From Dolomedes plantarius (taxonomy: Eukaryota > Arthropoda > Arachnida > Araneae > Dolomedidae): a stretch of 64,000 bases of DNA. Numbering within the stretch: the stretch's first letter is position 1; every line of letters begins with the position of its first letter. Positions 4,260 to 55,685 of the stretch are shown one piece after another. Below the pieces are notes generated by a model that did no database searches, had not been told where the DNA came from, and saw only the letters and a program-made list of their open reading frames with translations. The stretch is taken from NCBI GenBank assembly GCA_907164885.2, contig OU015495.1, forward strand, positions 3,011,308-3,075,307, written 5' to 3'. A program made the translations under genes and the position numbers.

Positions 4260-4419
4260 TTAATAAAAATATATACAAATTAATAAAAATATATAAAATG
4301 TATTTCAAACTGGCACATTTTACCAAGATTATGTATTTCATATATCAGACAGCATTCTGTGCAAACTATATCTCAGCACTTAAATATTGCTTTTATAGCA
4401 ACATTTTCTTTTGATTTAA

Positions 4420-5260
4420 TTAAAATACATATTTACAATAAAATATATTTAACATTTCATACTGGACAATTTCATTTAAGTCATTCTCTCCACTGGTCAC
4501 TTGAAGAACAGCCATATCAGAACCTTTGTTTACATATTTACAGACATATTTGATGGATTTAACTGAATTACGGTACTCTACGTTTATATGGGCATTGAAA
4601 ATTTTGGTTAGTAGAGGGCAATACGGGACAATCCACGTATTGTCTATAGACACTTGCGATCCTTTATAAACGATTTTAGCCTTAAATCCCCCTTCTGTTG
4701 ATCTGCGCCGATAAAGTGGATATCCGTTTTGTCCTGTTTGCGTCTCTTTCAAAAATTGGCACGGGTATCGTTTAGTGCAAATTCTATCTTTCATGCATGA
4801 AGAGGTTGGATTTGTGGATCCGCAGGGGCCGTGGACCATCTGCTTAGTTACAATGGAAAAAAAGTCGCGGGTCTTCTTGTTCATTAGGGATTTCAGCACT
4901 GATAAAGTCATCCACGAGGTGAACGTATAGGGAGTCCTTGAGCCTAATCAGAATGTGAGCATGACGAAGTCCTCGCTTCTGCCACTCTATCGTGTACATA
5001 TGACACCCAACTTCTCCAAAAATCTTTGCCTTTGTGATGAGACTCATAAGTGATTTTTGTTTTTGATGAAACACTCTTGCTAACAAATCATGACGATCCT
5101 GTGGTTTTTGTCCAACTATTCTTTGTTGTTGTTGTCTGATTTCTTCCAGTCTCGCTTCTCTTTCCGGGGTAGATTCAGCATCTCTTCTACTTTGTTCTCA
5201 TTGTATTTTCTGTCGCTGTTGTGTCCGAAGACATTTTTTTTTTCTGGGAGGCTGGGGCAT
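4420..5260 (-). pseudogene. Helitron replicase (Rep domain) remnant
   Basis: Read on the minus strand, this encodes part of a Helitron Rep/helicase protein, the rolling-circle initiator that nicks and joins DNA through an HUH motif and tyrosines. Visible signals are DLLARVFHQK, then YTIEWQKRGLRHAHIL carrying the HAH (HUH) motif, then KYVCKYVNKG carrying the paired tyrosines. The N-terminus (MPQPPRKKK and a charged segment with EREARLEEIRQQQQR) joins the Rep core directly, so several hundred residues of the usual N-terminal region seem deleted. A frame change lies near 4850-4910 and an in-frame stop near the N-terminus. No PIF1-like helicase domain follows. The remnant is inactive. Confidence 0.8.
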
Positions 5261-5477
5261 CTTCAAAGAAAAATGCTAAGGACATAAAACATTAGGCACA
5301 AAATAAAAGCAAATAAAATGAAAGACCCTGAAATGAAACTGAGATTAAATTCAAAACTGCAAAATTACAGAAAATGAAATAAAAAAATAGAACCAAATGA
5401 AATAGCAAGCAACGGTAGCCGAATCGGTACTTTCGCATTAAACGGAGGCCACCCATTTATTTATATTTCAATTCTAA

Positions 5478-5712
5478 ATGCAAATGGCAGAGTGCAGATC
5501 GAGAAAACAGCACAAAAGCATGCACCCTAAGTTCTTTGCCACAACACTTCCAGCTAGAGGAGGCAATGTAATGCGGGAGAATGTTTTCGTGGCATTCTTT
5601 GGGCCTTTTAATTCGTGTGGAAATACGTCTGAATGCCAAGGAGTATTTAAATATTGCCGTTGAACAAGTATATTTTAATGGCCTCCACAATCACCAGATC
5701 TCAATCGTCAGT
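5478..5712 (+). pseudogene. possible Tc1-like transposase remnant
   Basis: On the plus strand the frame contains a GGNVM-like stretch and, about 40 residues on, WPPQSPDLN. The latter resembles the motif preceding the last catalytic acidic residue of Tc1-type transposases. The intervening segment is much shorter than normal, implying an internal deletion. It ends where the Gypsy remnant begins, at about 5715. The match rests on two short motifs and could be chance. Confidence 0.33.
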
Positions 5713-15066: not shown

Positions 15067-15953
15067 TTAGGGTGGAACGAAAAAAACTTTTTTTCGAATT
15101 TCAATATGCTCTAGTTTTCAAAAGTTGCCTTTTAACAAAATAAAGACGGAAATCAAATATTAGCGTAATTGGTGCATGTTTTCAGTTAGCGCAAGAAGGG
15201 CAAACGTTTGGTTTTATTAAATTTTTTACAAATTTCGCAATTATTTTGAAATTGAATACACTTGTAGTACAAAAAAGCACCAAATATGCAATTTAAACAT
15301 TCTTTTTAGTCAGGAGACCTGCTAAACTGATTATATAATACGTTTTACTTCATAAAAAATAGTACACATAAAGGCACTTACGGACGAGGCACTTAAAAGA
15401 CACTCGGACATCACGGTGGAACGAAAAATTTTTTTTCGGAATTTCAATGTGCTCTAGTTTTCAAAAGTTGTCTTTTAAAATTAAAATTAAGAATATAAAA
15501 TCTCTTTGCCCTACTAAAATATTTTCAAGTGCCGCAAAGGGCTTCAAAATGGATATTTTTATAAAAAAGTGATTATATTTGTATTTTTTGTTAATTTCTT
15601 TTATAGTATATTAAAATAATGTATATTTTCTGTAAATAAAATATTCAAAATATGATATTTTGACAGAAAACTCGCATATTCTAAGTATTTCTAATTTTTA
15701 GATGCCATAACAGAACAACTGATTTTGTGGAATTTCGCGATTTTCATCATATTAATTTTACAGTAGCATATTCTTATAATACACATTGGAATGAAAGAAA
15801 AACAATTTTTGATTGACGGACCTTAGTTAAAATAAACAAATCAGACTTATTTAGAAAAATATTAATGTAATGTCTATGAAGGCAAAACGTTATTTTGAAA
15901 AAAATATTCATGCTTTTCAAAAGTACATAGTAATCACACATGGTTTCCATTAC

Positions 15954-16929
15954 TTATTTCACTGACACATTGAATTGTTTCATTGTTTCAAATTTTGGCA
16001 TTATCTTTTGAGAATGTATTTTTGTTTTTAACAATGCATCTCTTGCAGAAGTACCACGAACGGACAATGATGATTCGGTAACTAATTTAACAATCCTTTC
16101 TACTACTTGTGTGTGACATGGAATGTTGTTGAAGTCAATAATTTGTTTCTCGTGATCAGATTCTTTTGCTTCCTTTATAAACTGTTTTAGTTCGTCATCA
16201 GAAACATGCCTCGTCATAGGAGGTTCTGTTACTTTAATATCATTCCATTCAATCATATCAATATAATCTTTGGCATCAAAGTTTATACGTGGAACTAAAT
16301 TCTTTCTGATGCCTCCTTCATTTTCCGCCCTTGCTTTTAGAATCCAGCGTAATCCAAGCTCTCTTACTTGACTGCGATCGTCTAATATATACAAAGGAGG
16401 AGATTTTCAGAAGCGGAAAAGTATGCATTTCTTTGAATGACAGGGTCAAATACATTTTTAAGTGTCTGATTGAGGTAACGTGAATAGCTTACAAGTTTCC
16501 ACAAGTGCTTCGATCCACGGATACAAGATGGTTTCAGCTTTATGTTAAACCAAATTGGTGCATAAACTTTCAAAATGTACTCAGTATTCGGAGATTTTTT
16601 GCAGGAAATTCTGTTCCCACATACAAGCGAAGTATTCAGTTTGCTAATGTAAGCCATCGTGAATGACAAAATTTTCCTGGTTTTCTCATGGACAAATCAG
16701 AAGAGCACTTTCCAACAGAGATTGCATTATGCATTTCTAACAAATATTTTGGGTCCACACTTAAATCATCCTTAATTTCTAGTAATGGAATGTTATTTTC
16801 AATAGGTGAAAATTCAATCACTGGAAGTTCATAGCAGTTTTCTAGTTGTTTACCTATTTCTCCTCCAAATTCATTTGGACCTTTAGTTTTTCCATCTAGG
16901 AAACAAAATGTGACGTAAGGACAGTTCAT
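15954..16929 (-). pseudogene. unrecognised TE-borne protein, minus-strand copy
   Basis: Coding runs on the minus strand from 16929 through 16669-16382 to a 146-codon ORF ending at 15954, with frameshifts near 16640 and 16390. N-terminal residues are MNCPYVTFCFLDGKTKG. The C-terminal part has a conserved-looking block, CHTQVVERIVKLVTESS followed by SARDALLKTKI and a short tail ending FNVSVK. I have seen similar C-terminal blocks in unannotated repeat-borne arthropod proteins but cannot name the family. The last 60-odd codons lie in the left inverted arm, and a second copy lies at 16937-17122. Confidence 0.5.
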
Positions 16930-16936
16930 TTAAATT

Positions 16937-17122
16937 ATTGACTTCAACAACATTCCATGTCAGACACAAGTAGTAGAAAGGACTGTTAAATTAGTTACCG
17001 TGTCATCCTTGTCCGTTTGTGGTACTTCTGCAAGAGATGCATTGATAAAAACAAAAATACATCCTCAAAAGATAATGCCAAAATTTGAAACAATAAAACA
17101 ATTCAATGTGTCAGTGAAATAA
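16937..17122 (+). pseudogene. inverted second copy of the TE protein C-terminus
   Basis: This plus-strand frame of 61 codons ends with TAA at 17122. It encodes the same C-terminal block as the minus-strand ORF (ERTVKLVTVSS, VCGTSARDALI, QKIMPKFET), because it lies in the right inverted arm. There is no start codon. It has Cys where the minus-strand copy has Arg (VRGTSARD). It shows that the arms duplicate a coding 3' end, not only terminal repeats. Confidence 0.6.
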
Positions 17123-17448
17123 GTAATGGAAACCAAGTGTGATTACTATGGACTTTTGAAAAGCATGAATATTTTTTTCAAAATAACGTTTTGCCTTTAT
17201 AGACATTACATTAATATTTTTCTAAATATGTGTGATTTACTTATTTTAACTAAGCTCCGTCAATTAAAAATTGTTTTTCTTTCATTCCAATGTGTATTAT
17301 AAGAATATGTTACTGTAAAATTAATATGATGAAAATCGCGAAATTCCACAAAATCAGTTGTTCTGTTATGGCATCTAAAAATTAGAAATACTTAGAATAT
17401 GCGAGTTTTCTGTCAAAATATCATATTTTGAATATTTTATTTACAGAA

Positions 17449-28160: not shown

Positions 28161-28993
28161 GTCTAGATTTTCGAAGGTTTCGAAGGTTCCGTAGGCTATG
28201 GCTTCTGTAGTATCGCATGGGACAGTGAAATATTTTGGATTGACCGTTTTGATTGCGAGTTGCTTACGTGAGTTATTATGGCGGGAATGTTGGGTTTTTT
28301 TTTCGTTCGGATCGGATGATATTTTTTGAATATTTGTGGGATTTTCAATTTTAAAAACATTGTTTAGTCAGCGTAAGCTTTGTTTTACTGGCCGCTACAG
28401 CCAGCGGAAGCTTTGATTTACTGACCGCTACTGCCAGCAAAAGCTCTGTTTTACTGACCGCTACAGCCAGCAAAAGCTTTGTTTTACTGACCGCTACAGC
28501 CAGCGGAAGCTTTGTTTTACTGTACTACAGCCAGCGGTTCATGACGAAGCCACCAGTTGAGGATTTTTTTACTTAGTTTTCCAACTTATTTGTTCTTTCT
28601 TGGTTGCCACATTTGTTTACATTTCGCAGTTTAAGCCTAACAGGTCTGCGAAAACGAGATTTTTGCGCCAAAAATTCAAATTTTCTTTAATAAAGTGTAA
28701 CTTTTCACTCTCAACGGCCCTAATTTAACTTCATTTTTATAATTCCTTGATAATTTTTCAATGAACGTAAAGTTTGGCATGTTGAAATTTATATTCTCTC
28801 ATAATTTTAAAATTTGAAAAATAAATAGTTTTTCTTTAAATTTCATTTTTTCCTGCTGTTGAAGTTTATATTCTCTCAATATTTTATAGTAAATTTCATG
28901 TTTCCAACTGCAATGGAACCGCCATCTTGGTGACGTCTCCTATCGCCAACTTTGCGATATGGCGGTTCCATCGCAAAATACATGGGGGTACCG
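28161..28993. other. BEL leader between 5' LTR and gag
   Basis: Apart from the 33-bp repeats, this stretch holds no recognised coding sequence. It includes AT-rich DNA, and a short duplicated phrase (GAAATTTATATTCTCTC / GAAGTTTATATTCTCTC) near 28785 and 28862. A clear primer-binding site next to the LTR was not identified. Confidence 0.5.
28369..28536 (-). repeat. 33-bp tandem repeat in the BEL leader region
   Basis: About five copies of a unit containing CGCTACAGCCAGC and GCTTTGTTTTACTG, with a period of 33 bp. Read on the minus strand in one frame, the repeats are open and encode an 11-residue repeat (PLAVAVSKTKL with variants). It lies between the 5' LTR and gag. Whether it is translated is unknown. 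Confidence 0.85.
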
Positions 28994-31472: not shown

Positions 31473-33157
31473 AATATAATTAGCGCCAAAAGGAATTGTT
31501 ATAGAAGCCCTAACCGAAGTAGTATGTTGTATGTATTTGCCTGTAATATTTGTTTTTGGATTCATTAATAGTGATTCAAGGAAATTAAATGAGGCTGATA
31601 TTTGTGTTCCCATACAATATTACGTCTGATATGCCTACCCTTCTGTGTAGTTAATGAAAATATTCGACTTGATAAACAGTTTATTTCCTCTCCTGATGAC
31701 ATTAATTTTATCAATAAATATTAAAGAATATTTTGAATATAATGGACCAATAATGATTTTATTCATTGATTAGTTTAAAAGTTTATGAAGAGAAATACAT
31801 GTGATTCTATTTTTCCTGGTTAAAAAATCCCCAAAGTATAAGCCCCCCCCCCCCCCAAAAAAAAAGGAAATTAATTTTAAAAAGCTAAATGCTGATTCTT
31901 TTTTTTTTTTGGTGTGTGTATACATATATATGTGGGATTTCTGTAAAAAAAACTATTCAAGGGGTGGAGGGAGTTCTTTCCTCGGTTAGAGAAACAAATT
32001 ATTTGTGTGTGTGTGTCTATATATTAATAAGAAAGAGGTCTATTGAGATTTTAAGATCTATTTAGCTTAAATGAATAAAAATATAAGTAAATGCTTAATG
32101 ACCAGTGTAAGTTCTTATTGTTTTGATTATGAATGAATTTTAGATTAGATCTAAATCAAGACTATTTGTGTTTCGGACTAGTTATAACATTAATTTTTAT
32201 TATTTCTGAAAATTTTTTGCTTCAACTGCAATTTTTTCTCCTCTACTACTTTAAGATAATATCCTACATCCTTAAGTTAGGATTTATGAATTGTAATAAG
32301 GTTTTTATTTCTGTAATTAGTAAAAGTTTGAATAGCAGTCTGTGGTAAATTTAAGTATTCTAATTTATATGTAGAATCTTACAACAATGGATATTATAAA
32401 AGCTACTTAGTCATTAAAATGATAAGAAGGAATTATGTCCTATTTTTCACCAAGCATAAAAGGATAACTCACCCATTTTATCACATTTTAAATTTATTCT
32501 TAATGTTGCAAGTCTCGTTAGCTGTTTTTTCATTCTGTTTCTTTATAAAATATGATTTTTTAACACTTACTTCATGTAAAGTATATAGATTTTTCTTCAT
32601 TTAATTCAATTATATAATGTTTCCAAATCCAAAATTTATGTTAGTAATTTTATACAAAAAGTTGTTGCTTGTGTGCTTTTAAGGATATATTGGTTTATTA
32701 AATCGTGATTCATCCTTTTTAATTTTCTACAGAATTGGAGAATTTTATCTTTATGATAAAATTAACTGATTTTGAATTGTATATAATCATTATTCTACAT
32801 ATAATTTTAGCACTGTCTTAACTTATGCATAAGGTAGGGCAGAACCCCATTGAAAATCTTTTTAACTGCTCTCTATATAGTCTTTTATATTTTGTTATTT
32901 GAATATTGTTAAGTAGATACTTGAATATCTGGCTTTTATATAATATATTGAAACAATTAAATTCTCTTCTGGCTGCTCTTCATTAAATCATTTGGATATT
33001 ATAGCTGAAGTGCATCCATAATTAAGAGCACATTCTTTTAATTATTCCAAAGCTCAGTTACCTCTTTAATTGCAGGGTTTGGAAGAAATTATTAAAGACT
33101 ATCTCTCATGGGAATAATAGATTAAGGTTGTAAGTTCTGCTTAACCAATCCTTAATA
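31473..33157. other. AT-rich intergenic DNA
   Basis: No gene or element end was recognised. It contains a C-run followed by an A-run near 31843, a T-run near 31900 and a short TG-repeat near 32005. Confidence 0.55.
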
Positions 33158-33327
33158 CAGTTGGCTCTCTGTTTAACGACTTTCAAGGGACCATGAAAAA
33201 TCATCCTTAAGTAGAGACCGCCCTTAAACAGAATTTGTGAAAAAATAACATTTCCCATAACGTCGGAGGGGCCGGGACTGGGAAATATCGTTGTTAAGTA
33301 GAGCGTCGTTAAACAGAGAGCCAACTG
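33158..33327. mobile_element. Tigger/pogo-type MITE (TA TSD)
   Basis: A 170-bp unit with 22-bp perfect inverted termini starting CAGTTGGCTCTCTGTTTAAC, flanked by TA on both sides. The termini are nearly identical to those of the larger element at 40316-41167, which has CAGTTGGTTCTCTG. This relates both to Tigger/pogo elements, whose ends start CAGT and whose target is TA. Confidence 0.9.
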
Positions 33328-38628: not shown

Positions 38629-39001
38629 ATTCTGTACAGTAGCGTAGCTAGAACTTTTGCCGCCCGGGGCGGTCTCCAATTTGCCGCCCTTTCTAAGTCA
38701 ATCAATTGGTGGTTTTTATAAATTAATTAACATAAATAAATAATTGTAATTGAGACAAACTATAGGTGGGGAACTTTTTTACCATTGGACGCCATATTTA
38801 AATTAGGCAGTAATAAAGGAGGCCGCTTAAGTTGATATGCCTATAAATGCAACTTTTATAAAGACCACAAGAAACTTACGGAGGTCACAGTTTCCCCACC
38901 TATGAGACAAAACATTTACCTAATTTATAAAAAAAATTCCATAAAATATGTTTTATTTTATAATTTTTATATTTATAAATAAAAATAAATAATTTCATTT
39001 C

Positions 39002-39571
39002 TGTTAGACTCTCGACTCCCATTCTTAAGTGGAATTGATGAAGGTGAGTAATAGCGTCTTTAATAAGCCCAAAATAAACGCAAACAGGTGTCGAACGATA
39101 TACACCTTTGGAGATGTGCGATAATAGGTAAAGGTACGCAAGTCATTTAGAATGATTTGTGAAACCCATTAGCGGCGCGCTTTTCCAAGGGAAGAGGCGC
39201 CAGGAAATAAATTCACCATAGGTGGTCTGCAGAGGGCGGAACCGGAAAAGGTCCGGTATTCGAGATTGTTCGAGAAAGGGCTGAGAAGAATGCATAAATA
39301 ACGACGCGGTTGCGAATGAGGAAGAGAATAGACTTGGACTGTTGAAACGTCGCCACGCGTATGGAGAGAGAGAGGGTCTCGCATGGACTTTGAATAATGA
39401 GCCCTGCTCTCATGAGTGTATTAACGTTCGTCGGAGCGAACCTTTGTAAATGATTTATTTAACCAAGATTTTAATGTTTCAATAAACCAGATGTAAATAA
39501 GAGTTGGTTCTACAATTATGATTACTTCTACAAGATAATGATTTGTCGGATCACGACCATAAAGGTTAACA
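39002..39571 (+). repeat. 5' LTR (plus) of the gag-only element
   Basis: 570 bp, TGTTAGACTC...AAAGGTTAACA. It is followed by TTGACGTAGTCG, which may be the primer-binding site, but I could not assign a tRNA. Confidence 0.88.
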
Positions 39572-39717
39572 TTGACGTAGTCGAATAAAAGAACGTGGGA
39601 GGACCCCGACGACACGGAAGGTATCAGAAAAAGATGATCTAGAGTACTAGAGTGGTGATACATCATTTAGGAGACGCAATTTCAAGAGAAGTTGGATTCC
39701 GGACAAGTTATACTGGG

Positions 39718-39945
39718 CACGACTTCAGCGACAGATATTTACTCGGTAACTGGTCAAGAAAAGGGAGCAGAAACCTGAGCCAGAAGAAATTCAAGGTCGG
39801 AGTGAGGGGTGCATCAGCGAATTCTACTAGACACGACTTCAGCGACAGATATTTACTCAGTAACTGGTCAAGAAACAGGAAAAGACACCTGTACCAGGAG
39901 AAATTCAAGGTCGGAGTGAGGTGTGCATCAGAGACGTGGTTATAT
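39718..39945 (+). repeat. two-copy tandem duplication in the leader (114-bp period)
   Basis: CACGACTTCAGCGACAGATA starts at 39718 and 39832. Each copy continues through GTAACTGGTCAAGAAA and AAATTCAAGGTCGGAGTGAG. Confidence 0.9.
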
Positions 39946-40315
39946 AGTGAACTCTCTTGAACTGTGATCAAAGTGCGGCAGCGGAGAAAGATTAGAGTGA
40001 CAGTTTTTCATCGAGGTGAAAAAGGGGTAAGTGATTATATCTTTTTTCCCTGTGTATGAGATAGCGGTAGTAATTAGTTGAAGGAATCGAATTATTTTTT
40101 TATAAGTTTTGAAGTGTGAATCATGAGTATAATGATGGAAGTAATTTTTTGAGTTATTGAATTTTTGGTAATTGGATTATTAGTTTAAAAATGAAAAAGT
40201 GTTATTTTGTATAACGGAAAAGTGTATAAGTGCTTGTACTATTTTATTAGTGGAAGTGATTTATAATTGTAGTAGTTAAATGCTCGTAGAATTATCATAA
40301 TTGTTGAGGTAAATA

Positions 40316-41167
40316 CAGTTGGTTCTCTGTTTAACGACGCTCTACTTAACGACGATCTCTATTTAAAGACGATATTTTCCGGTCCCGATCCCTCCGACGT
40401 AAAAAAATTCTATTTTAAGACGATTTTGTTTCTATTTAACGACGATTTTTTCTTACATCATAAACTTTTTCTTCAACATTTTATCTACAGGAGGGTTACT
40501 TTCTGTGGGGGAGTTTGGTTTCAATAACAGACCCGGAATTTCCTTTATGTTTGTTGCAATCATACACTTGTTGCAGTGGGAAAAACCGGGGGGGGGGAGA
40601 GGGATTACTATTTCTCGGAAGATCCAACATTCTTCCCTGGTGGATCGAATTTCTTAGTGCGGGTGTGGAATCACTCTACTGTACCTACCATGTTGTCATG
40701 TGATTTACGAACTGTCCAAAGGCACCCCTCTCTCACTCCTTCTGGGAAGCACGTGTTCATGTTTAGAGAATTCATGGTTGTGTGTAGGAGCTCATTTCAG
40801 TACGAATACGAAGTGAGCAGAGCAAAATGACATCAAAGCGAAAGCATCTTACGCTACACGAAAAAGTAAAAATTTTAAAACGTTTTGAATTTTTTAAAAC
40901 GTTTTGAATTTTTTAAAACGTAATTTATTGTATTGTTTGTACTTTTTTTTCAATGTAATTTAAAATAACTTTTTGTGAATAAAATAATGATGATAATAAA
41001 AATAACATTTTTAAACACGCCAATATATTAAGAAATATATTCACAGTCCTAAGCCTGTAAAGTGTGAAGGGAAATGTTATTTTATCACAAATTCTGTTTA
41101 AGGACGATCTCTACTTAAGGACGATTTTTCACGGTCCCTTGAAAGTCGTTAAACAGAGAACCAACTG
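40316..41167 (+). mobile_element. Tigger/pogo element, 852 bp (TA TSD)
   Basis: Inverted termini CAGTTGGTTCTCTGTTTAAC are flanked by TA (40314-40315 and 41168-41169). Subterminal TTAACGACGAT-type repeats occur on both sides. A transposase start at 40827 reads MTSKRKHLTLHEKVKIL, the psq/CENP-B-type helix-turn-helix of pogo transposases, and decays after about 22 codons. It is inserted in the leader of the LTR element. Confidence 0.9.
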
Positions 41168-41265
41168 TAGTTCCAGATAAGTATAGTTGGTTATATTTTG
41201 TTATAGTGGTAAAAGTGAATTTGTACTTGTTTGCTGCATTTGTGATTAAATGATATAAGCGAAAA

Positions 41266-41610
41266 ATGGCATTCCTGGGGAAGGGACGTAAGGCCGATTT
41301 AATTACGTTGGCTACAGAGCTTAACGAAGAAGTCCCTCCGAATAGCACAATGTATGACCTAAAACATATAATTCAGGGAAGTGAGAAATATGAGGAAAAG
41401 TCCACTAAGGAACGGTTATTTGCCATAATTAATGAGAGAGTGGAAAGAGAACGAATTGAAAAACAAGAGAAAGATAGACAATGGGAGGAGACAGATAGAC
41501 AATGGGAAGTTGAAAAAGAGGAGAGAGATAGACAGGAAAGAGATAAACAAAGAGAAATTGAAAAACAGGAGAGAGATAGACAAGAGGAGGAGAGAGGCAA
41601 TTTCAAATAA
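41266..41610 (+). CDS. gag, N-terminal part with charged coiled coil
   Basis: A 114-codon ORF starting MAFLGKGRKADLITLATEL, similar to the N-terminus of gag proteins of some arthropod Gypsy elements. From about residue 58 it becomes almost entirely Glu/Arg/Lys/Asp/Gln with a repeating ERDRQ pattern, a probable coiled coil or single alpha helix. It stops at 41610. The next frame (open through the region before ATG 41619) continues the same kind of sequence, so one frameshift, mutational or programmed, separates it from 41619-42656. It would form particles with elements that supply pol. Confidence 0.75.
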   Translation: MAFLGKGRKADLITLATELNEEVPPNSTMYDLKHIIQGSEKYEEKSTKERLFAIINERVERERIEKQEKDRQWEETDRQWEVEKEERDRQERDKQREIEKQERDRQEEERGNFK

Positions 41611-41618
41611 AAATTAAA

Positions 41619-42656
41619 ATGTTGGATTTAGAAATTGAAGAATTGGGGATGAGGGCAGCTAAAAGACGTTCAAGTTTAAGGGTCAGAGAAGGTATTGGAA
41701 GGGTTAATAATAATTTCGAAGGATTTTTGAGAGATGAAAAAAGGGTTATTATTGAACTACTAGTTAAAACAGATAAGGTATTTGCCAAAATTGACTGGAA
41801 AAAGGAGGATAAAAGATGTTTTGTCTGTAATAGTAAAGACCATTTGAAATATCAGTGCCCCAAAAGAGTTCAAAATCTCAGAAATAGAGGGGATCAGATG
41901 GGAAATAAATTTGAGATGGAATTTAATAGAGGCGAAATTATTCAACCTGAGAATAAAATTGAAACCCAACAGGAAAGGGAAGTGAGATATACAATTACTC
42001 AAGGAAAGGAGGTCCTCGAATGCGTAGCGTATTCTCAAAGGCATTTGAGTAAGAGTTTAGATCAGATATTAGATGAGGAGTTGATTATTCCTCCTAATAT
42101 GTTCGAAATTGTAAGGGATACAGAGAAGGAGATGGCTATTCCCCCGAATAGATTTGAAATCGCAAGGGACACAGAGGAGGAGATTATTATTCCCCTTAAT
42201 ATGTTTGAAATGGGGAGTGAGACGAAGGATGAGGAGATGTTCTATAAGGGAGGAGGTAGTGAATTAAGTCCCAATGAGAATTTAGATGAGGTGCGAGAAA
42301 TGGATAAAATTTTGGATGGGGAATTAAGTCTCAAGGAGAATTTAGATGAGGTGCGAGAAATGGGATTTTCAACGGAAAAAGAGAGGAAAAATCAAATTGA
42401 TATTTTAAGGAATAAAAGGTTAGAGGAAACTAATAATGAGAATGGAAATAATCAAAGGGAAACACAATACGAAGAATTAAATGCCCAGGGAAGTCCCAAC
42501 GATACGGGTAGGAAACAGACGCAAAGTATGGGAAACAAGACTTACGCAAAAAAGTGTGATTTTGAACCGACACTAGATCACAAATTCACAAAGGAGTCAA
42601 TGAGAGATTGTGAAATAAAACCAAAAACCCATTCGTATTTATTTAGGGTCCCGTAA
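41619..42656 (+). CDS. gag, zinc-knuckle part with acidic repeat tail
   Basis: A 345-codon ORF. It begins MLDLEIEELGMRAAKRRSS and, near residue 69, has a CCHC zinc knuckle (CFVCNSKDHLKYQC), the RNA-binding module of retroelement nucleocapsids. Between residues 150 and 250 an imperfect repeat occurs (PPNMFEIVRDTE, PPNRFEIARDTE, PLNMFEMGSET; then two copies of ENLDEVREM). The C-terminus ends HSYLFRVP. No protease or polymerase motif follows. The open frame, with only one break in the whole gag, suggests recent activity or selection. Confidence 0.8.
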   Translation: MLDLEIEELGMRAAKRRSSLRVREGIGRVNNNFEGFLRDEKRVIIELLVKTDKVFAKIDWKKEDKRCFVCNSKDHLKYQCPKRVQNLRNRGDQMGNKFEMEFNRGEIIQPENKIETQQEREVRYTITQGKEVLECVAYSQRHLSKSLDQILDEELIIPPNMFEIVRDTEKEMAIPPNRFEIARDTEEEIIIPLNMFEMGSETKDEEMFYKGGGSELSPNENLDEVREMDKILDGELSLKENLDEVREMGFSTEKERKNQIDILRNKRLEETNNENGNNQRETQYEELNAQGSPNDTGRKQTQSMGNKTYAKKCDFEPTLDHKFTKESMRDCEIKPKTHSYLFRVP

Positions 42657-43601
42657 AATTGCAGAGAGGATCACAAATTTAAGTAATTCCCAAAGAATTC
42701 CGGGAAACTCAAGTAATTGTGTATTTTATAAATGTTTTAGAAATGATTTAAGTAGCTCTCAAAGAATTCAGGGAGAATTTAATTAAATGTGTATTTTGCT
42801 AATTGTATTGATAATTAATATTTTTGAATCCTAAGAAAAATGGATTAAATTTGTAAATATAATGGTATTAAGAATTTAGGTGTATAAGATATGTGATAGC
42901 TATTTTTTTGGTTGTTTTGTCGTGTGAACACTTGGTTTGTGTTCTATTTTAAGTGAAGAACTAAGTCATAGCTTTGGTTTGTGTTGTGTTACTTAAAGTG
43001 AAGGGTTAAATAATAACCTTATCTTGTGATATTATGTGAGAGAGTATGAGAAATAAGTTAAAGCGATTCCCAAGGAATCCGGGAAAAATTCTTCAATTAG
43101 GTAATGTAACTAGTGAGGTTAATGTTAAGTAATTCCTAGAGATTTGGGAAAATTTATTAAAATATGTAAGTGTAACTAGTTAAGATTAAGCCAGGTAATT
43201 CCTAAAGATTTTGAAAAAAAAAGGAATCAAAAGCGTAATTATCTTAGAAATTCTTGCATTGAAGATAAGTGATTTGTAGTCAAATAATTTGTTGGTGTTT
43301 GGTTTAAAGTAAAGAAATCAGCAAGAATTATAATATTAATTTTGTGTCAAGGATAAGTGTGAAAAGTAATTTTTGTTACCTGTAAATGTTGTGGCTATCT
43401 CATATGCAGATGAAAACATGGAATCATTTACTTGTAAAATTGTATTATTGTTGTGGCTACAAAGGGCCACTCGTCACAAGTTGAAAGCACAGTTATTACC
43501 CCAGGAGAGTGCCTCGTTATCCTCTGATCAACAGGGACTGTTGTTCAAGCGTGAAAACGTCTCAAAAAAGACTTTTTTCACTTCTAGAGGAAGGGGCGTA
43601 A
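42657..43601 (+). other. non-coding part between gag and 3' LTR
   Basis: AT-rich, with several degenerate copies of a phrase such as AATTCCCAAAGAATTCCGGGA (42687, 42757, 43069, 43190). No pol-like frame is visible. It ends with a purine-rich tract at the 3' LTR. The repeated phrase may mark an old internal expansion. Confidence 0.6.
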
Positions 43602-43750
43602 TGTCAGACTCTCGTCTCCCATTCTTAAGTGGAATTGATGAAGGTGAGTAATAGCGTCTTCAATAAGCCCAAAATAAACGCAAACAGGTGTCGAACGATA
43701 TACACCTTTGGAGATGTGCGATAATAGGTAAAGGTACGCAAGTCATTTAG
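43602..43750 (+). repeat. truncated 3' LTR (plus), first 149 bp
   Basis: It matches the first 149 bp of the 5' LTR, then jumps to LTR 3'-end sequence (two short copies of AAGGTTAACA, 43751-43782) before the inverted LTR starts. Confidence 0.9.
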
Positions 43751-43782
43751 AAAAGGTTAACATTGGTCATAAAGGTTAACAT

Positions 43783-44352
43783 TGTTAACCTTTATGGTCG
43801 AGATCCGACAAATCATTATCTTGTAGAAGTAATCATAACGGTAGAACCAACTCTTATTTACATCTGCTTTATTGAAACATTAAAATCTTGGTTAAATAAA
43901 TCATTTACAAAGGTTCGCTCCGACGAACGTTAATACACTCATGAGAGCAGGGCTCATTATTCAAAGTCCATGCGAGACCCTCTCTCTCTCCGTACGCGTG
44001 GCGACGTTTCAACAGTCCAAGTCTATTCTCTTCCTCATTCGCAACCGCGTCGTTATTTATGCATTCTTCTCAGCCCTTTCTCGAACAATCTCGAATACCG
44101 GACCTTTTCCGGTTCCGCCCTCTGCAGACCACCTATGGTGAATTTCTTTCCTGACGGCTCTTCCCTTTGAAAAGCGCGCCGCTAATTGGTTTCACAAATC
44201 ATTCTAAATGACTTGCATACCTTTACCTATTATCGCACATCTCCAAAGGGGTATATCGTTCGACACCTGTTTGCGTTTATTTTGGGCTTATTGAAGACGC
44301 TATTTTTCCCCTTCATCAATTCCACTTAAGAATGGGAGACGAGAGTCTGACA
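43783..44352 (-). repeat. complete inverted LTR forming the right edge
   Basis: 570 bp, minus orientation. TGTCAGACTCTCGTC starts at 44352 and TTAACA ends at 43783. It is nearly identical to the 5' LTR. The target duplication ATTTC follows directly at 44353. Confidence 0.92.
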
Positions 44353-44828
44353 ATTTCCTTTGGATAAACAAACAAATTGTACACATATGTGTATGTAAAT
44401 AAAAAATCTTTATATATTTACTCTTCTAACTTTCATAGTAGAAAAATCGTGTATAATGCTCTCAAAATTTGTAATATTTGTAATTTCTTGTTCTATAGAC
44501 AATATTGCAAGATTTTGTAGTCTTAAATCTCTCATTGTGGAACGAAGATAATTTTTTATCAACTTCAATTTGGAGAAGCAAATCCGAGCTGTATCCGAGC
44601 AAAATTTTTAGAGATAATATTTTCAACCCTACATTGACTTAACGATGAGGAAAAATATTCGAAATCATATAGTAATTCATAATTCGTAGAAATCGAATAG
44701 TAAACTTATGAATTGAACAAGTGGTTTTTTACAACTAATACTAAATAAAAATATGCCGCCCCAAAATATGTGCCGCCCGGTGCGGACCGCACCCACCGCA
44801 CCCCCCTAGCTACGCCACTGATTCTGTA

Positions 44829-51486: not shown

Positions 51487-52012
51487 AGAAGAATTCTTTT
51501 TTTAAATTAATGGACAATAATTGTTTTATTCATTTTTTGTTTTTTCTAGAATTCATTTTTATATATTGAACAATTTTTGATTTTTTCACACATTTTTTTA
51601 TTGCTTACATTAAAAATTACTTTGTATATATTAGAAATTATTTGTATTTAAAAAAATGAATAATAATGTTTTTAAGTTTAATTCTTTTGCCTGATTTACT
51701 TATGTATCTTTTTAAAATTAAATTTTTTAGATAAGCTATTCACAATTTAAAACATTTTCTGGGCTTTCCTAAATTAATCCCCTTTGCGTTGTGTAAATTT
51801 AGGGAGGTGAACTCCAAAGGGAACTATGCGTTTATAAATAAAAATAACAACATTTATTATACAATATATTACAAGAAAAGGTCGGGTTTACATATTATAT
51901 TTAAGATCTTGGCTATACATATTTTTAACCGAATTAGGGCATACTTCATCCGCTTCCTGCGGCATAACCATTACGGGTCGAGTGAAATAAAAGTCTCGAA
52001 ATCTCTCAAAAA
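51487..52012. other. AT-rich hAT 3 interior before the array
   Basis: No coding. A less AT-rich patch at 51780-52010 (starting GTGTAAATTTAGGGAGGTG) might be a fragment of another element but shows no paired terminus. Confidence 0.5.
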
Positions 52013-55000
52013 GGCATGAGCACTATTTAAAGGGGGAATTTATGACCAACCTGGGGAGATTTGAAGAAAACAGCAGAGCATGGCTTCGTTGAGGTACTTC
52101 TACAGGAGGAGGATTTAGGCATCGGGTAGAAATTTATGTGGCTCTTCACTGGCGGAAGCAACAGGATTCGGTGCTGGCGGTTGAAGACGGGTATCTCGCC
52201 ATTTTACGGTGGCGTCTTTCCTTCCCAGGCTCTCTTGCAGCTCGCTACCTCCAATCGCTCCCTCGCTCTCTCTCCGAACCTCGTTTTCACCCACACTCGG
52301 GGCTCCCCCAATCTTTATCATAACCCCTCCCCAGGTTAGTTATTCACGTAAATTTATTGCCTCTTCGAGTTTTTTATTCGAGGGCAGGATGCTCTGACAT
52401 TCCCATGGTTGACCCACGTGGTACGCTTATTTCCAAGAAAATTGGAAGTCCGTTGAATTTCCTGGAATTTCTTTCCCGCGTCCTGAGGAATTCAGGAGGG
52501 GTGATGTTTCTTGGAAAATTGGTGCAGTTCCAATATGGCCGTTTTATGCCCCGTAATCGTGTTGGAAGAACAAAATGGCTATAACGTTGGAAGGAGTTCA
52601 AAATGTCCAAATTGTGGATCCTTCACAACAATCACTCCCCCCCTTTTCTAGGCGTGCTGGCACGCCACAGTCTGTAGGGGTTGAAGAACGGATTGGCTCC
52701 ATTCGCTTCAGCAAAATAGACTCCAACTGCACAAAAGTCACAATGGCAGTAAAAAAAATCATGAATGACATCAGTTGTAAAAGTTCAGGAGGTCAAAATC
52801 TCCCCTTATAGTGCTGCAAGTTTTACTGATTTAAAAAAAAAATTCAAAATTTATAAAGTTTTCTTTAAGCTTACATTAACTCTGACCAACATTAGCTAAC
52901 ATCATAGAAAATGGTATGCATACCCTGTAAAACAAATAATAACAAAATAGTGGCTCGATCAACACATGTGATCAGAGATTAAAATGTAAAGAAAGGGTTA
53001 TCTTACAGAAATAGAAATCTCTCCGCTAGAGGCATGAGCACTATTTAAAGGGGGAATTTATGACCAACCTGGGGAGATTTGAAGAAAACAGCAGAGCATG
53101 GCTTCGTTGAGGTACTTCTACAGGAGGAGGATTTAGGCATCGGGTAGAAATTTATGTGGCTCTTCACTGGCGGAAGCAACAGGATTCGGTGCTGGCGGTT
53201 GAAGACGGGTATCTCGCCATTTTACGGGGGCGTCTTTCCTTCCCAGGCTCTCTTGCAGCTCGCTACCTCCAATCGCTCCCTCGCTCTCTCTCCGAACCTC
53301 GTTTTCACCCACACTCGGGGCTCCCCCAATCTTTATCATAACCCCTCCCCAGGTTAGTTATTCACGTAAATTTATTGCCTCTTCGAGTTTTTTATTCGAG
53401 GGCAGGATGCTCTGACATTCCCATGGTTGACCCACGTGGTACGCTTATTTCCAAGAAAATTGGAAGTCCGTTGAATTTCCTGGAATTTCTTTCCCGCGTC
53501 CTGAGGAATTCAGGAGGGGTGATGTTTCTTGGAAAATTGGTGCAGTTCCAATATGGCCGTTTTATGCCCCGTAATCGTGTTGGAAGAACAAAATGGCTAT
53601 AACGTTGGAAGGAGTTCAAAATGTCCAAATTGTGGATCCTTCACAACAATCACTCCCCCCCTTTTCTAGGCGTGCTGGCACGCCACAGTCTGTAGGGGTT
53701 GAAGAACGGATTGGCTCCATTCGCTTCAGCAAAATAGACTCCAACTGCACAAAAGTCACAATGGCAGTAAAAAAAATCATGAATGACATCAGTTGTAAAA
53801 GTTCAGGAGGTCAAAATCTCCCCTTATAGTGCTGCAAGTTTTACTGATTTAAAAAAAAAATTCAAAATTTATAAAGTTTTCTTTAAGCTTACATTAACTC
53901 TGACCAACATTAGCTAACATCATAGAAAATGGTATGCATACCCTGTAAAACAAATAATAACAAAATAGTGGCTCGATCAACACATGTGATCAGAGATTAA
54001 AATGTAAAGAAAGGGTTATCTTACAGAAATAGAAATCTCTCCGCTAGAGGCATGAGCACTATTTAAAGGGGGAATTTATGACCAACCTGGGGAGATTTGA
54101 AGAAAACAGCAGAGCATGGCTTCGTTGAGGTACTTCTACAGGAGGAGGATTTAGGCATCGGGTAGAAATTTATGTGGCTCTTCACTGGCGGAAGCAACAG
54201 GATTCGGTGCTGGCGGTTGAAGACGGGTATCTCGCCATTTTACGGGGGCGTCTTTCCTTCCCAGGCTCTCTTGCAGCTCGCTACCTCCAATCGCTCCCTC
54301 GCTCTCTCTCCGAACCTCGTTTTCACCCACACTCGGGGCTCCCCCAATCTTTATCATAACCCCTCCCCAGGTTAGTTATTCACGTAAATTTATTGCCTCT
54401 TCGAGTTTTTTATTCGAGGGCAGGATGCTCTGACATTCCCATGGTTGACCCACGTGGTACGCTTATTTCCAAGAAAATTGGAAGTCCGTTGAATTTCCTG
54501 GAATTTCTTTCCCGCGTCCTGAGGAATTCAGGAGGGGTGATGTTTCTTGGAAAATTGGTGCAGTTCCAATATGGCCGTTTTATGCCCCGTAATCGTGTTG
54601 GAAGAACAAAATGGCTATAACGTTGGAAGGAGTTCAAAATGTCCAAATTGTGGATCCTTCACAACAATCACTCCCCCCCTTTTCTAGGCGTGCTGGCACG
54701 CCACAGTCTGTAGGGGTTGAAGAACGGATTGGCTCCATTCGCTTCAGCAAAATAGACTCCAACTGCACAAAAGTCACAATGGCAGTAAAAAAAATCATGA
54801 ATGACATCAGTTGTAAAAGTTCAGGAGGTCAAAATCTCCCCTTATAGTGCTGCAAGTTTTACTGATTTAAAAAAAAAATTCAAAATTTATAAAGTTTTCT
54901 TTAAGCTTACATTAACTCTGACCAACATTAGCTAACATCATAGAAAATGGTATGCATACCCTGTAAAACAAATAATAACAAAATAGTGGCTCGATCAACA

Positions 55001-55685
55001 CATGTGATCAGAGATTAAAATGTAAAGAAAGGGTTATCTTACAGAAATAGAAATCTCTCCGCTAGAGGCATGAGCACTATTTAAAGGGGGAATTTATGAC
55101 CAACCTGGGGAGATTTGAAGAAAACAGCAGAGCATGGCTTCGTTGAGGTACTTCTACAGGAGGAGGATTTAGGCATCGGGTAGAAATTTATGTGGCTCTT
55201 CACTGGCGGAAGCAACAGGATTCGGTGCTGGCGGTTGAAGACGGGTATCTCGCCATTTTACGGGGGCGTCTTTCCTTCCCAGGCTCTCTTGCAGCTCGCT
55301 ACCTCCAATCGCTCCCTCGCTCTCTCTCCGAACCTCGTTTTCACCCACACTCGGGGCTCCCCCAATCTTTATCATAACCCCTCCCCAGGTTAGTTATTCA
55401 CGTAAATTTATTGCCTCTTCGAGTTTTTTATTCGAGGGCAGGATGCTCTGACATTCCCATGGTTGACCCACGTGGTACGCTTATTTCCAAGAAAATTGGA
55501 AGTCCGTTGAATTTCCTGGAATTTCTTTCCCGCGTCCTGAGGAATTCAGGAGGGGTGATGTTTCTTGGAAAATTGGTGCAGTTCCAATATGGCCGTTTTA
55601 TGCCCCGTAATCGTGTTGGAAGAACAAAATGGCTATAACGTTGGAAGGAGTTCAAAATGTCCAAATTGTGGATCCTTCACAACAA
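52013..55685 (+). repeat. tandem array of 1018-bp units, 3.6 copies
   Basis: Units start with GGCATGAGCACTATTTAAAG at 52013, 53031, 54049 and 55067. The last is truncated at 55685. By eye the copies are nearly identical; the first has GGTGGCGTC where the others have GGGGGCGTC. Several short ORFs recur in every unit (for example MAITLEGVQNVQIVD), but none shows a domain. The unit has no recognised TE protein. Confidence 0.97.

Follow-up and report, generated by a model that had tools for sequence, protein, structure and literature searches.

The integrase of long terminal repeat (LTR) retroelements normally pairs one U3 and one U5 end. How, then, could an element in the genome of the spider Dolomedes plantarius have come to lie between two U3 ends? 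The element occupies positions 39002-44352 of a 64,000-nucleotide stretch of contig OU015495.1 (C5 in our labels; positions 3,011,308 to 3,075,307, assembly GCA_907164885.2), hereafter called the window, and the searches reported below covered 2.78 Gb of genome. An earlier note on this DNA had claimed that both outer edges are LTR 5' ends flanked by an ATTTC duplication, and that integrase had processed the inverted form as a genuine substrate. Direct reading and a chance control confirm the edges and the duplication, and the use of the inverted form by integrase gains support from the duplication, from LTRs that are each other's nearest kin and from a second example elsewhere in the genome. 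We regard it as likely, with a probability of about 0.82, that the complementary DNA (cDNA) of the window element had already gained an inverted LTR on its right when it was integrated, and that integrase inserted the two U3 ends.

A 5' LTR, a gag-only internal region, a cut direct LTR, a scrambled join and an inverted LTR make up the element, all inside one exact ATTTC duplication (Table 1; limits from direct reading and a repeat search). Since the inverted LTR forms the right end and the direct 5' LTR the left one, both outer edges are LTR 5' (U3) ends. The element is bounded, as had been described, by 570-bp inverted repeats, which differ at 18 sites; extended slightly inwards (39002-39574 and 43780-44352), the arms span 573 nt and are 97% complementary. 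The direct LTR (43602-43752), just preceded by a purine-rich tract, agrees with the 5' LTR at 148 of 151 sites. TGT...ACA ends, a 5-bp target duplication, a primer binding site and a purine tract place the element among the LTR retrotransposons. Its longest open reading frame (ORF) between 39000 and 44400 is gag-like and 345 amino acids (aa) long. Among the ORFs of that interval, all of 345 aa or less, we did not meet the pol products (protease, reverse transcriptase, integrase) of an autonomous element, and a Pfam scan of the two gag-like ORFs had a weak zinc knuckle below cut-off as its sole outcome. Judged by its sequence, the window copy is a non-autonomous, gag-only LTR retrotransposon. 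Pol domains, by whose order and kinship the Ty3/Gypsy and BEL/Pao superfamilies are told apart, are lacking in this copy.

The ATTTC duplication is hard to ascribe to chance. Equal 5-mers are expected with a probability of 0.0018 across the window and of 0.0054 in the two 300-bp local flanks, and when the left flank of one LTR copy was paired with the right flank of another, 7 of 1406 pairs were equal. Two of these seven would trace to the copies L039 (C7:40981264) and L038 (C7:41043607), which lie about 62 kb apart, are identical and share the same flanks, a pattern that points to segmental duplication. The copies compared come from a genome search with the window LTR, which listed 41 matches (40 of 2032 candidates were scored). 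Three of these are in the window (5', inverted and cut direct LTR), and the other 38 were all examined, 20 of them together with roughly 4.7 kb of neighbouring DNA to either side and the remaining 18 with roughly 30 bases. Among these listed matches, a 5-bp duplication flanks the same LTR termini exactly in 25 of the 38 other copies (12 of the 20 with long neighbourhoods) and with a single mismatch in another 6. TGT/ACA ends with 5-bp spacing are thus the rule of the window's LTR family. None of the 20 long neighbourhoods, in which parts of L019 and L029 read N, contains an inverted LTR pair; the other 18 were too short to reveal a pair.

The two complete LTRs appear to have a shared history. 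When the polarity of their 18 differences was judged on the 38 other copies, 8 changes were assigned to the 5' LTR and the other 10 to the inverted LTR. At 16 of these sites the minority allele occurs in at most one of the 38 copies; the exceptions are sites 199 (4 copies) and 361 (2 copies). The three differences between direct and 5' LTR are likewise changes on the 5' LTR. At 17 subfamily sites, defined on the first 20 copies, the 5' and inverted LTRs differ once, at a 5' LTR base found in 0 of the 20. A tree of 40 LTRs places them as sisters (support 95/72), with end branches of 0.015 and 0.018 against a median of 0.018. Because the pair are sisters in the tree and 16 of the 18 minority alleles are rare elsewhere, the two LTRs probably derive from one source and parted at insertion; allele counts and tree alike argue for divergence after that point, and the inverted LTR seems about as old as the insertion itself.

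At least two units with U3 ends at both edges exist in this genome. The exact pattern of the tail-to-tail junction, with 0 to 12 bases between the tails, matched the window alone, and a degenerate version allowing 0 to 30 bases matched three places, two of which have LTRs: the window and a locus on contig C3 (C3:222863226, hereafter L051). The third place (L052, C3:70118828) is without an LTR match and was taken as chance. In L051, an LTR (local positions 4414-4939) is joined through ACA-TTAA-TGT to an inverted LTR (4944-5473), with the U3 edges outside and the internal region absent. Counted from the outer edges, the first 444 nt of the arms are identical, and so are 31 nt at the centre; in between, the inverted arm carries a rearranged tract with reiterated GATTTTAATATG words that is not in the direct arm. 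An exact AATAC duplication flanks the unit on both sides. The earlier note had proposed to look for cases of this kind, with inverted-orientation LTRs and another 5-bp duplication. L051 is inserted inside one arm of a host hairpin repeat (local positions 4387-5686) whose other arm keeps the empty site; compared with the flanks of L051 joined without one AATAC, this site has 96 identities in 100 aligned bases, of which 27 lie to the left of the insertion point and 73 to its right.

The LTR of L051 is about 75% like that of the window, and its family is apparently a younger sister of the window's family. Among the matches listed, the direct arm is a rounded 100% like three other places, whose scores differ slightly, and 98% like the other 36. 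A search for this sister family listed 41 matches (40 of 1819 candidates were scored), of which 2 are L051 itself, 28 form 14 direct pairs and 11 stand alone; no other inverted pair occurs among those listed, as far as pairing can be read from the match table. Six of the paired copies have normal U3/U5 edges and primer sites, with duplications that are exact in five and carry a single mismatch in one. We read L051 as a separate event in which an LTR palindrome was inserted by its two U3 ends, which suggests that this insertion route was taken more than once.

The joins may tell how such molecules were made. A shortened direct LTR followed by a complete inverted one had been proposed for the window and was found, joined by something other than the simple tail-to-tail palindrome described with it, since two additional LTR tails lie in the join. 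After base 151, where the direct LTR breaks off, come AAAGGTTAACA-T-TGG, T-CATAAAGGTTAACA-T and finally the inverted LTR, starting TGTTAACC; an exact palindrome extends 14 nt to either side of one T. The normal 5' LTR boundary reads ACA-T-TGGCGTA in 10 of 10 other copies (L016, L026, L041, L047 and the six sister-family copies), and the window's own now reads ACA-T-TGACGTA. Given the normal boundary, the T and TGG of the join are as expected of a cDNA end that had retained part of the copied primer and the base ahead of the primer site. The putative primer is a serine transfer RNA (tRNA), to whose 3' end TGGCGTAGTCG would correspond. The extra bases are ACA-T-TGG and ACA-T in the window and ACA-TT in L051, and at both joins they fit unprocessed cDNA ends. 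Retroviral cDNA ends may keep a base of the primer tRNA, and by that analogy the TT at the centre of L051 would fit one such base left on each end. The two extra bases on each side of the L051 join speak against integrase processing of the joined ends; the window join is scrambled, and one of its sides could be integrase-processed. Of the two origins named by the earlier note, template switching is the more probable: like fold-back synthesis or U5 end joining, it fits the joins better than autointegration. Plain autointegration is not favoured because LTR tail meets LTR tail with extra T bases like those of unprocessed cDNA ends.

We therefore propose the following route, whose early steps are modelled from the joins. 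Two U5 (LTR 3') ends would have been joined tail to tail while the element was still cDNA, either through end joining to another cDNA end that carried an LTR or because synthesis folded back on itself, and template switching would have scrambled one U5 tract near the join. The product would be linear DNA in which both ends are U3. An autonomous relative would presumably have supplied the integrase in trans, which would then insert the two U3 ends concertedly, and host repair would yield the 5-bp duplication. That the join formed in cDNA and that integrase was supplied in trans we infer; the sequence itself shows the anatomy of the element, its duplication and a second example with an empty site, and allele counts and tree speak for the common source and later divergence of the LTRs. 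The ATTTC duplication, the nearest-kin LTRs and the second case with its empty site together argue for one insertion through two U3 ends.

Several observations weigh against this proposal. The sister support of 95/72 lies below the starred level of the tree, and the bootstrap had not settled. At 24 informative sites defined on the 38 copies, the window pair would differ at two (196 and 199) and ranks 17th of 780 LTR pairs, with 25 pairs equally close or closer, so that a common source of the pair is likely but not unique. Changes are mildly uneven, in that over 151 bp none is private to the direct LTR, compared with three in the 5' LTR and five in the inverted LTR. The direct LTR is the damaged one in the window, and the inverted LTR was thus not copied from its present state. 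The boundary of the 5' LTR in the chromosome may have been the template for the TTGG of the join. The searches yielded only two cases, and the control search was narrower than the search that found the second: an exact head-to-head pattern, in which U3 faces U3 on the inside across 0 to 30 bases, had no match in the genome, whereas the tail-to-tail search was degenerate and its exact version found the window alone. As only 16 of the first 20 copies start with the exact 13 bases of the head-to-head pattern, that pattern would miss some copies.

Among other explanations, the one that survives best overlaps with our own. A tail-to-tail dimer of two complete cDNAs may have been integrated by its outer U3 ends and its inverted half then reduced to one LTR by LTR-LTR deletion. 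This history keeps the U3-U3 integration and yields exactly the form seen in the window. It also draws on the finding that an internal region like the window's (at E 1e-10) was not seen in 18 of the 20 copies of this family examined with long flanks, one of which (L016) runs into a primer site and is therefore not a solo LTR. L051 would need two such deletions despite its near-identical arms, in a family in which 28 of the 39 other scored matches sit in 14 direct pairs. We give the dimer history a fairly low probability, which overlaps with that of our own proposal. For the window copy, an added LTR-only fragment or a dimer later reduced to one LTR may each apply. For L051, a precursor made of LTRs alone is more probable than a dimer from which both internal regions were lost, because the arms are near-identical, the internal region is absent and many listed family copies keep both LTRs.

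A normal element could instead have been inserted first, and a later replication fork at its 3' LTR end could have switched template, copied an LTR in reverse as far as its U3 end and returned to the host flank through short ACA|ATTTC homology. The repeated LTR tails in the join suit such a switch, and as the LTR termini share TGT/ACA, a return at ACA lands exactly on the duplication. Foldback templated insertions at breaks have been described (PMC11724301). Such a history requires a second switch exactly at an LTR terminus in two separate loci, and it must have followed the insertion soon, since the inverted LTR has as many changes of its own as the 5' LTR (10 and 8). We consider it improbable. 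More doubtful still, and very improbable, are two independent insertions, a normal element and a reverse solo LTR, fused by a deletion and with ATTTC matching by chance. LTRs without an internal region are frequent, which suits this history, but the flanks would agree by chance in about 0.2 to 0.5% of cases, the window LTRs are nearest kin, the deletion must end within one base of the last base of the inverted LTR, and L051 shows the same design together with an empty site. The earlier note had set up this case as one that would undo its reading; chance rate, LTR kinship and L051 are all hard to square with it. Its other such case, a palindrome produced by assembly or library construction, is just as improbable: near-palindromes are a known artefact of this kind, and the identity of the L051 arms over 444 nt suits one, but the window arms differ at 18 of 570 sites with changes on both, which makes an assembly palindrome very unlikely, each of the two structures ends precisely at LTR termini flanked by target duplications, and the rearranged tract of L051 is in one arm only.

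If one insertion through two U3 ends is the right reading of both loci, two natural insertions with clean duplications indicate that a like-end pair can work in the germ line, and such insertions would be a fossil record of the fate of mis-joined cDNA ends. More tentatively, U3-U3 insertion may be a recurrent side path in which U5 ends fold back or fuse during or after reverse transcription and integrase accepts the resulting LTR palindromes, whether an internal region is present or not. In that event, an LTR family would keep seeding inverted-repeat, foldback-like units that are missed by software seeking direct LTR pairs. The long inverted repeats of such units could form hairpin RNA, their outer LTRs would not reduce to a solo LTR in the usual way, and the units might be mistaken for DNA transposons or assembly errors.

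Table 1. Features of the window element, in positions of the window
Feature	Position	Strand	Basis
Target site duplication (5 bp, ATTTC), left copy	38997..39001	.	read directly; chance control 7/1406
5' LTR, complete, 570 bp, TGTTAGAC...GGTTAACA	39002..39571	+	limits agree with matches of other copies and their duplications
Spacer T and primer binding site, TGACGTAGTCG	39572..39583	+	boundary compared with other copies
Nested DNA-transposon-like insertion, 28-bp inverted ends	40311..41172	.	not present in relative L026
Gag-like ORF piece, 114 aa	41266..41610	+	no Pfam match; putative gag from position and adjoining ORF
Gag-like ORF, 345 aa, CCHC zinc-knuckle-like stretch	41619..42656	+	zinc knuckle below Pfam cut-off
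Polypurine-tract-like AGAGGAAGGGGCGTAA, directly 5' of direct 3' LTR	43586..43601	+	same place in L024, one difference
Direct 3' LTR, only first 151 bp left	43602..43752	+	repeat search
First extra LTR tail, AAAGGTTAACA + T + TGG	43752..43766	+	resembles other copies where LTR meets primer site
Second extra LTR tail, T + CATAAAGGTTAACA + T, left arm of palindrome	43767..43782	+	exact junction pattern unique in genome
Complete inverted LTR, 570 bp, reverse strand TGTCAGAC...GGTTAACA; outer edge is U3 start	43783..44352	-	repeat search
Target site duplication (5 bp, ATTTC), right copy	44353..44357	.	read directly

The nested DNA-transposon-like unit is missing from L026 and is thus probably a later arrival in the window element; an inverted, 92% copy of its end at 41064-41169 lies at 33156-33261. 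The 5' internal region contains a tandem duplication of 113-114 bp (39708-39934; copies 88% alike). Elsewhere in the window are an inverted repeat with 517-nt arms, 96% complementary and 787 nt apart (15628-16144 and 16932-17448), a 33-bp minisatellite (28369-28533) and a tandem array with a 1018-bp period (52012-55365 and beyond), in which 300-nt pieces of four copies are 100% identical.

Elements of the DIRS type, to our knowledge, make no target duplication, and membership of the window element in that group was rejected because both cases have 5-bp duplications. No ORF longer than 345 aa, as a candidate tyrosine recombinase, occurs in 39000-44400, of which Pfam covered the two gag-like ORFs. 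DIRS-1 resembles the window element in that inverted LTRs enclose it, but it belongs to the tyrosine-recombinase retroelements, whereas the window element has a 5-bp target duplication and the LTRs of a direct-LTR family (PMC5633606). An inverted LTR pair is stated for Gypsy-25 of locust (PMC8786324), which may be a precedent or loose wording. The accessible text of a paper on tandem LTR elements in plants has inverted-LTR terms in one reference title only and none in its main text (PMC11899658). A literature search that lacked most subscription journals brought up no article clearly devoted to natural insertions with U3 at both edges.

Retroviruses offer partial parallels. Autointegration of human immunodeficiency virus (HIV) yields nicked inverted or subgenomic circles, and of 21 HIV-1 clones with a processed U3 end, 13 had joined internal viral sequence and 8 contained LTR sequence only (PMC2644782). 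Inverted viral DNA forms arise before integration there as well, as circles, whereas in the window the U3 ends are free on the outside and would have been used for insertion. In aberrant integrations of HIV and Rous sarcoma virus (RSV), in which host enzymes insert one end, the target DNA shows deletions, long duplications or rearrangements (PMC5041404). Trouble at one viral end leads to odd junctions in those integrations too; the sites of the window element and L051, in contrast, have clean 5-bp duplications. Palindromic junctions of 2-LTR circles are cut by integrase in vitro (PMC1905944) and likewise join LTR ends, U5 to U3 in the circle but U5 to U5 inside the inserted unit in the window.

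Complex LTR elements of Triticeae, with three LTRs and one target duplication around the whole, have been explained by template switching before integration (Sabot and Schulman 2007, PMC1950507). They resemble the window element in having three LTRs within one target duplication, in the likeness of the outer LTRs and in the argument for a preintegration origin. They differ in that two elements, described as lying in the same orientation and with no inverted LTR in the part consulted, share an internal LTR, while the window element has U3 at both edges and an inverted inner join. With its three LTRs, one duplication and apparent single source, the window element has the marks of a complex insertion formed by template switching, in an orientation unlike that of the published cases.

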